The notes under the pieces were generated by a model. The model was not told the DNA's origin. It saw only the letters and a list, made by a program, of their open reading frames with translations, and ran no database searches. A DNA stretch of 64,000 nucleotides from the NCBI GenBank assembly GCA_947165425.1, contig CAMVAJ010000001.1, forward strand, positions 89,663-153,662. The letters run 5' to 3'. Below are positions 25,817 through 27,891 of the stretch, piece after piece. The position numbers and the translations under genes were made by a program. Numbering within the stretch: the stretch's first letter is position 1; the number at the start of each line of letters is the position of its first letter. Source of the DNA: an uncultured Clostridia bacterium (GTDB taxonomy: Bacteria > Bacillota > Clostridia > Christensenellales > Aristaeellaceae).

Positions 25817-25824
25817 CTCTTGTG

Positions 25825-25898
25825 TACGCCCGGCAGGAGTCGAACCTGTGGCCTACAGAGTCGGAGTCTGTCACTCTATCCATCTGAGCTACGGGCGC
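25825..25898 (-). tRNA. tRNA-Arg, anticodon CCG
   Basis: 74 bases forming a full cloverleaf on the minus strand: acceptor GCGCCCG/CGGGCGT, D arm GCTC...GAGT, anticodon stem ACAGA/TCTGT with loop CTCCGAC (anticodon CCG, reads CGG), and T arm with TTCGACT. There is an A-C mismatch at the base of the T stem. The 3' CCA is not encoded (AACA follows), so it must be added. Confidence 0.95.
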
Positions 25899-26117
25899 TC
25901 AACAAATGATAAAATAGCACAAGCAGCGCGGATTGTCAAGGGCTTATGCGTATTTTGAAAATAAAAACCAACCTGACGGCGGCTTGTTTTTTCAGTAAAA
26001 TTCACGAGGAGACACTTGTGTTTTAAAGCAATGTTTGTTATACTTCATTTAGCGTATGAGCTGAAAAGGGGTTCGCGAGGCGATTTCGTTGCGCCCCGCC
26101 GGAGGAGGATTCATCAG
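25899..26117. other. Gene-free leader before the rho-like gene
   Basis: 219 bases between tRNA-Arg and the rho-like start. The first half is A/T rich (AAAATAAAAACC) and probably holds promoters for both directions. The second half, from about 26016, is open in the rho frame but has no start with a good ribosome site until 26118. I see no strong hairpin. Confidence 0.4.
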
Positions 26118-27848
26118 ATGGCTGATTTTAATAGCATGACCGTATTGGAACTGCGAAAATATGCGCGGGAGCACGGCGTCACCATAGGCGCAGGCAAAAG
26201 CAAGGCGGACATTGTCGCGCTTTTAATGGACGCGGAAGGCGTGCAGTCTGCGGAGCCGGCGAATGACAGCCCTGCCGAAGCGGCGCCGGCGCAGGAGCCG
26301 GTCAAACGCGCCGGCGCAAGCTTTATGGCGGCCTGGCACAACCCGGCAGGACGGTATGCCGCTCCCCAGCGTGGCGCAGGCGGGAACCGGCCTCAACGGC
26401 CAACCTTTTCAACCGGGCTGACGGAGCATGCGAATAAGCAGCGTATGCCCGCCTCTCCCCGCTTTGGCCCGGGCGCTTTGGCTGCCAATGAAAACACCAC
26501 CGAGGATACCTATACGCCCGCACCGCGGACGGTACGGAGCTGGGGACCCGACGAGAGCGAGATCGAGTCCCCTCAGATGGGCGTTTCCGCTACTCCGCCG
26601 GTGCTTGAACGAACGACACAGCAGGCGCCTGATCGCTATCCTTCGCCTGTCCGGGGCGACAATGCTCCCCGGCGGGAAGATCAGCAGGATCTATTTACCC
26701 CCGAGGAGCTGAAGGACGGCCTCGGCATCATGGAGATGCACCCGGATGGGTACGCCTTCCTCCGCGTGAATGGGCTTAGTCCCTCGGCCAACGATATCTA
26801 CATTGCCCCTGCGCAGATTAAGCGCTATCAGCTTCGCCCCGGCGATCTGATCAGCGGCAAGGTGCGTCCTCAGCGGGAGGGAGACCGTTTTGCCTCCATG
26901 ATGACGGTTCAGGCGGTCAACCAGATCCCGGTTGAATCGCTGGCGTCCCGCCCCGCGTTTGACAGCATGACGGCAATCTATCCGAATCGTCCCATTAATC
27001 TTACCCCCTCGGACAGCCGTCAGCGCAACACGCGAATTCTGGATATGGTCGCTCCGATCGGCTTCGGCCAGCGCGCGCTGGTGCTCTGCCAGCCTGACAC
27101 GGGCAAGGCGCCTTTCCTGAGAGACTTGGCCAATACGATTGTTGCGAACCATCCCAACACGAAGGTGTTCATTGTGCTCCTGGACGAGAATCCGGAGGAC
27201 GTGACGCTTTTCCGGGATACGGCCCAGTGCCCCATTTACGCCACGACCTTCGACCAGCTGCCTGAAAACCACCTCCGTCTGAGCGAGCTTGCGCTTGAAC
27301 GCGCGGAGCGCCTTGTGGAGGAAGGCAAGGACGTCGTGCTGATGGTGGACAGTCTGACAAGACTGGCCAAGAGCTACTCCATCGCTGCGGCACAGCAGGG
27401 AAAGGCAACGCCGGGCGCAATCAACCCGTCCAGTCTCTACAGAGCACGCCGTCTTTTCGGAGCGGCACGGGCGCTGCGTGAAGGCGGAAGCCTGACCATC
27501 CTGGGATGCATCAATGTGACCGCGCCCGGAAAACAGGATAACAGCATCATCGAGGAATTCCGGGAGGCGGCCAACTGCGTAATCACGCTCGACAGTACGC
27601 TGGCCCGCGCCGGAGTGAGGCCGACCATTTCCTTCCACCAGAGCGGAACCAAACGTTTCGACGGCTTTGTGAGCGATACCCGGAAGGAAGGACTGCGGAT
27701 CCTCCGCAAAGAATTCAGCGGGCTCACAGACGCGGCCGCGATCAAGCAGCTGAACGAGCTGGCAAACCTGGTTCCGGATAACGACACGCTGTTTGACCGG
27801 CTTCCGGAGTGGATGGCGATGCTGGGCGGCGTGAAGGAGACCAACTGA
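26118..27848 (+). CDS. rho: Transcription termination factor Rho, divergent ATPase site
   Basis: The ATG at 26118 follows GGAGGAGG; 576 residues. Domains in order: Rho_N (1-42, LRKYAREHGV), a long disordered insert rich in Ala, Pro and Gln (about 45-195), the cold-shock-like RNA-binding domain (about 197-280, GYAFLRVNG, DIYIAPAQIKRY) and the RecA-like ATPase (about 300-570). RNA-binding residues and Walker B (VVLMVDSLTRLA) are kept. The Walker A reads QPDTGKAP where Rho normally has PPKAGKT, so the Ser/Thr after Lys is Ala. DERPEEV reads DENPEDV, and SGTR reads SGTK. Either a weak or inactive ATPase, or a Rho paralogue with another job. Whether a normal Rho exists elsewhere cannot be seen here. 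Confidence 0.85.
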   Translation: MADFNSMTVLELRKYAREHGVTIGAGKSKADIVALLMDAEGVQSAEPANDSPAEAAPAQEPVKRAGASFMAAWHNPAGRYAAPQRGAGGNRPQRPTFSTGLTEHANKQRMPASPRFGPGALAANENTTEDTYTPAPRTVRSWGPDESEIESPQMGVSATPPVLERTTQQAPDRYPSPVRGDNAPRREDQQDLFTPEELKDGLGIMEMHPDGYAFLRVNGLSPSANDIYIAPAQIKRYQLRPGDLISGKVRPQREGDRFASMMTVQAVNQIPVESLASRPAFDSMTAIYPNRPINLTPSDSRQRNTRILDMVAPIGFGQRALVLCQPDTGKAPFLRDLANTIVANHPNTKVFIVLLDENPEDVTLFRDTAQCPIYATTFDQLPENHLRLSELALERAERLVEEGKDVVLMVDSLTRLAKSYSIAAAQQGKATPGAINPSSLYRARRLFGAARALREGGSLTILGCINVTAPGKQDNSIIEEFREAANCVITLDSTLARAGVRPTISFHQSGTKRFDGFVSDTRKEGLRILRKEFSGLTDAAAIKQLNELANLVPDNDTLFDRLPEWMAMLGGVKETN

Positions 27849-27858
27849 ATCAAACAAG

Positions 27859-27891
27859 ACCCCGTCAGAGCATCATCGACTCTGACGGGGT
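27859..27891. terminator. Bidirectional terminator between rho and khpA
   Basis: Perfect 12-bp stem ACCCCGTCAGAG/CTCTGACGGGGT with a 9-base loop, between two convergent genes. T-rich bases follow on both strands (TTCCTGTTT on plus; CTTGTTTG on minus). Confidence 0.82.

Follow-up and report, generated by a model that had tools for sequence, protein, structure and literature searches.

A sole Rho factor with an eroded ATP site in an uncultured clostridial lineage

The closest described relatives of the protein reported here are the canonical Rho (profiles TIGR00767 and NF006886; E. coli Rho, T. maritima Rho 3l0o), the Rho of M. tuberculosis (7oqh), which carries a large insert and whose weak enzymology is discussed in the literature, and the short-form paralogue Rho2 (NF041509). 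A translocation-independent inactivation of RNA polymerase by Rho was proposed by Said et al. 2021, as cited in PMC9908020, and PMC9908020 presents the later steps of E. coli Rho action as still thought to require ring closure and translocation.

The Rho studied here is encoded in a 64,000-nucleotide stretch of DNA (the window) from an uncultured Clostridia bacterium. It resembles canonical Rho in domain order, RNA-binding residues of the OB domain, Q- and R-loops, Walker B motif and fold, but it differs in the ATP pocket (K181, T185, R212, R353, F355 and R366) and it scores 345 bits against the TIGR00767 equivalog, below the cut-off of 509.45; this cut-off was passed in 8 of 12 matching control genomes, some of the 12 matching through other ATPases alone. 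The large insert is shared with M. tuberculosis Rho, and the OB domain plus ATPase core with Rho2; unlike Rho2, however, the window protein reaches 280, below the Rho2 cut-off of 628, and its genome encodes no other Rho. Our literature searches, whose scope excluded the surveys Moreira 2024 and D'Heygere 2013, turned up no description of a naturally occurring Rho with an eroded ATPase. The window protein is a real and surprising variant of the Rho family.

The rho gene of the window and its ATP pocket

The features of the locus are given below, with residue ranges in the numbering of the window protein; substitutions here and throughout follow E. coli Rho numbering, via alignment to E. coli and T. 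maritima Rho.

26101..26109, plus strand: Shine-Dalgarno-like sequence ggaggagga, favouring a start at ATG 26118 over TTG 26016
26118..27848, plus strand: rho gene with eroded ATP site, 576 amino acids, open frame from ATG 26118 to the stop at 27848
26253..26708, plus strand: low-complexity (disordered) insert, residues 46-197, lying between the N-terminus and the OB domain
26724..26933, plus strand: Rho_RNA_bind OB domain, residues 203-272 (PF07497, 85.9 bits)
27093..27113, plus strand: Walker A region PDTGKAP, residues 326-332; K184 kept, K181D and T185A
27183..27203, plus strand: DENPEDV, residues 356-362; catalytic Glu kept, Arg valve R212 replaced by Asn
27348..27362, plus strand: Walker B region DSLTR, residues 411-415, intact
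27402..27416, plus strand: Q-loop region KATPG, residues 429-433, mostly kept
27531..27575, plus strand: R-loop, residues 472-486; K326 and D328 kept, EEFKGTGN changed to EEFREAAN
27612..27620, plus strand: GVR, residues 499-501; R353G and adenine-stacking F355R
27642..27656, plus strand: SGTKR, residues 509-513; arginine finger R366 replaced by Lys
27859..27891, minus strand: intrinsic terminator-like hairpin, separating rho from a convergent minus-strand operon (KH protein, rpsP, ffh)

A tRNA-Arg(CCG) gene (25824-25898, minus strand) sits between lexA and rho.

An earlier note on this DNA had read the Walker A motif as QPDTGKAP, with Ala in place of the Ser/Thr that coordinates magnesium, DERPEEV as DENPEDV, SGTR as SGTK with the arginine finger replaced, and the EEFKGTGN segment as altered, and it had considered the OB-fold RNA-binding residues and Walker B to be normal. 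The alignment confirmed all these readings and added K181D, R353G and F355R, bringing the pocket changes to six (K181D, T185A, R212N, R353G, F355R and R366K); the roles ascribed here to F355, R353 and K181 follow known Rho structures. The Walker A pattern GK[TS] is thus replaced by GKA, and the Arg valve and Arg finger by N358 and K512. The catalytic Glu E211 and the Walker B D265 are present (E357 and D411), D210 and R269 are also kept, and so are the primary RNA-site residues (F62Y, F64, R66, D78, Y80, R102, E108D and Y110F). Conservation extends to the loops of the ring pore and to residues of the fold. The pocket changes exceed what chance would give: 33 canonical Rhos from this family are 100% invariant at K181, K184, T185, E211, R212, D265, R353, F355 and R366. 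The note had described the ATPase residues that it listed as near invariant in active Rho. Judged from these residues, a catalytic loss in the window Rho is likely, even though the retention of the P-loop Lys, the catalytic Glu and the Walker B Asp implies that weak NTP binding or hydrolysis is possible.

The disordered insert, estimated at about 150 residues in the note, measured 152 residues, 84% of them disorder-promoting. As canonical relatives carry similar inserts, and comparable ones occur in about 40% of Rhos (PMC13269538), this trait is ordinary for the group.

Descent and copy number

The assignment to Rho was supported by the NF006886 profile (349 bits, cut-off 315) and by an ATP-synt_ab core (PF00006, 70.7 bits); the Rho_N N-terminal domain gave no match in the window protein at E<0.001 and weak matches in relatives. 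All top Foldseek matches of an AlphaFold model were Rho, the model (pLDDT 59.8, built with 3 sequences) being used solely to confirm the fold. The gene order miaB-hinT-methyltransferase-rho-DUF1385-prmC-prfA, with neighbours named by sequence inspection, was found in the canonical genus g2 and in the degenerate g28 and g38, and partially in g20, g19 and g7; in the window's own genus rho is displaced from this ancestral position. A phage origin was rejected, no relative being present in viral contigs in a search that sees close relatives only, and so was a plasmid origin, since the plasmid matches were ordinary Rhos with <60% identity.

A Rho profile search of the window genome (2.57 Mb, 97.8% complete), which answers the question in the note of whether a canonical Rho is also encoded, found the eroded copy alone; two other matches of about 30 bits each were ATP-synthase-like. 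Eight other genomes of the same genus were likewise devoid of a canonical Rho, each carrying an eroded Rho alone (in G119 as two contig-end fragments). Across the family, 149 of 150 genomes had a Rho match, with no internal stops among the matches listed. Genome G038 holds two different eroded Rhos (L051 and L052), one at the ancestral position and the other elsewhere, and in G144 (L092, 3075-5023) rho is split across two overlapping frames, by a frameshift, an assembly error or a programmed event.

Erosion and selection across relatives

When 55 eroded Rhos from the family were aligned with 33 canonical ones, eroded forms were seen in 14 of 39 sampled genera, the window's included. The changes are a property of a clade, a point that the note had raised as a question. 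Motif loss was mosaic among the eroded proteins, and canonical motifs were invariant in the canonical set. When six catalytic positions were scored (K184, T/S185, E211, R212, D265 and R366), all 33 canonical Rhos reached 6 and the window Rho 3, while the eroded proteins covered the whole range: 0 (3 proteins), 1 (8), 2 (11), 3 (11), 4 (5), 5 (8) and 6 (9). All six residues are kept in relatives from g9, two of g8 and one of g25; however, K181 is retained in 7% of the eroded set, R353 in 2% and F355 in 15%, which implies that even these proteins are usually altered elsewhere in the pocket. In the window's subclade D265 is kept in 28/28 and K184 in 24/28, and R366K is common to 15/28. Within the window's genus the P-loop itself varies (PETPCTD, PETHHRA, PETGKAA and PDTGKAP versus PDSGKTG), as would be expected once ATP turnover is dispensable, and some of these Rhos lack the P-loop Lys or the Glu.

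In an RpoB tree all sampled eroded family members fell in one clade (support 100/99), whose sole canonical genus, g16, is sister to the P-loop-less g30; a Rho tree built without the ATP-site columns again paired g16 and g30 (96/85). The nesting of a canonical genus within the eroded clade implies that the ATP site was lost repeatedly, in parallel. Together with the gene order common to canonical and eroded members, the trees are most simply explained by vertical descent, the ATP site having eroded in parallel at least two or three times within the family. A horizontal gain of canonical Rho by g16 is not favoured, given its position as sister to g30 in both trees and their shared neighbouring genes.

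The reduction goes further elsewhere in the order, in family f26 and in single genomes of f24 and f23. Remnants of 373-435 amino acids without a P-loop were found in f26/f24 (L176:2750-4054, L177:3016-4134, L178:2852-4063 and L179:2480-3619), with a Pfam match to the OB domain in both of the two that were checked, and no Rho was found in the order-survey genomes G158 and G180 (f10) or G171, G191 and G231 (f23, 0.8-0.9 Mb). In a survey of the class, the other Rhos scored at least 548 bits or were absent.

The eroded rho genes are under purifying selection, even after loss of the P-loop. In close pairs, dN/dS was 0.07-0.28, on par with flanking genes, and a pseudogene was rejected on this ground; for the OB domain, the pairs that could be measured gave 0.05-0.16, apart from a single one at 0.34. 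For the ATPase domain of the P-loop-less g30 pair it was 0.06, implying that the ATPase fold is maintained for something beyond ATP turnover. Among 123 alignment columns invariant in canonical relatives, whose retention was measured across eroded Rhos of 14 genera, those of the ATP pocket were 42% retained versus 67% in the rest of the ATPase domain (p=0.0014) and those of the OB domain 88% (p=0.0002), these p-values being descriptive because the site classes were hand-chosen from known Rho structures and the sequences are related. Relative to RpoB, eroded pairs diverged by 2.68 versus 1.45 for canonical pairs (about 1.8x).

Purine content was considered as a further readout, since genes of runaway-transcription species are purine-rich, avoiding Rho, and Rho-less Bacilli show a much weaker bias (PMC13323073); the bias should therefore relax once Rho no longer terminates transcription. 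Purine bias at third positions (R3), measured in 20-kb samples, was 0.443 in eroded-Rho genera versus 0.472 in canonical ones (p=0.003), a small family-wide shift confounded with clade, GC content and replication strand; g16, with its canonical Rho, resembled neighbouring genera, and the P-loop-less f26 did not differ from its canonical neighbour f25 (0.548 vs 0.547). For these reasons purine bias was not used as a readout of Rho activity. Overall gene purine content was about 52% across family f1 (L096-L175) versus about 55% in f25/f26 (L234-L253), whatever the Rho state.

What an eroded Rho might do

We favour the reading, with a probability of roughly 0.6, that the window protein is a single-copy orthologue inherited vertically in a high-GC clostridial lineage, whose Rho gave up its ATP motor and kept the RNA-binding ring. 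As alternatives the earlier note named an antagonist and a second Rho, which beside a canonical Rho would resemble the known logic of inactive paralogues; nevertheless, this proposal fails for want of a canonical partner in the window genome or in its eight congeners, and in sister genera the orthologue sits where rho lay ancestrally, so that we give it almost no weight. It is equally hard to credit that a Rho normal in all other respects has merely become resistant to bicyclomycin through these substitutions: the bicyclomycin pocket adjoins the ATP site (PMC8828861), with K336R and R212N close by, but the Arg finger, the adenine-stacking Phe and T185 are also changed, and resistance needs none of these.

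A more serious, albeit unlikely, alternative is an altered but still ATP-driven Rho, in which K184, E211 and D265 plus a Lys finger are enough to hydrolyse ATP slowly or under certain conditions. The retained K184, E211, D265, R269 and Q- and R-loops would fit such an enzyme, as would the conservation within the subclade of D265, K184 and the R366K exchange, and M. tuberculosis provides the precedent of an active yet slow Rho (PMC8828861). Against it stand the combination of T185A, R212N, K181D, F355R, R353G and R366K, at sites without variation in canonical relatives, and the congeneric Rhos deprived of the P-loop Lys or the Glu. Finally, rho might be on its way out, a relaxed and largely functionless gene whose deletion is yet to come. 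The accelerated divergence relative to RpoB and the Rho-less genomes of the order agree with this idea; however, it is improbable in view of the almost universal presence of Rho matches in the family, free of internal stops among those listed, and of the low dN/dS, including that of an ATPase domain already without its P-loop.

The proposal of the note that ATP hydrolysis was lost or changed thus holds as far as sequence can tell, on the basis of the six pocket changes, their occurrence as a clade property and the purifying selection on P-loop-less relatives. In the eroded lineages Rho is probably no longer a motor, and the sequence data speak for a ring that binds RNA but is moved by ATP little or not at all. 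As an oligomer, the window Rho would bind nascent RNA rich in C/U and would translocate barely or not at all; its action might be static, as an RNA clamp or by pausing or inactivating RNA polymerase through RNAP/NusG binding without helicase action. The role of RNA-binding roadblock suggested in the note is possible. A NusG is present in the window genome, where two NusG-family genes exceeded the nusG cut-off and a third was weak (C96:2620-3114, C73:8497-9003 and C2:25668-26018); the estimated contamination of about 3.8% could account for one of them. The inactivation proposed by Said et al. 2021 is a conceivable route for a non-motor Rho but, as cited in PMC9908020, it was described for the ATPase-competent E. 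coli protein. A tentative and rather doubtful extension of the reading that we favour is that a non-hydrolysing ring brings about termination or pausing, its sole remaining function being to act on RNA polymerase independently of translocation, and that this state was reached repeatedly in parallel.

It has long been debated whether Rho works as a motor pulling RNA out or through binding and allosteric inactivation of RNA polymerase. The natural series contained in this one order, from canonical Rho through eroded pocket, P-loop-less form and remnant to absence, in which the remainder of the protein is conserved, offers material for separating the motor from the other functions of Rho. Furthermore, the statement in genome surveys that an organism encodes rho need not mean that it has Rho-dependent termination.
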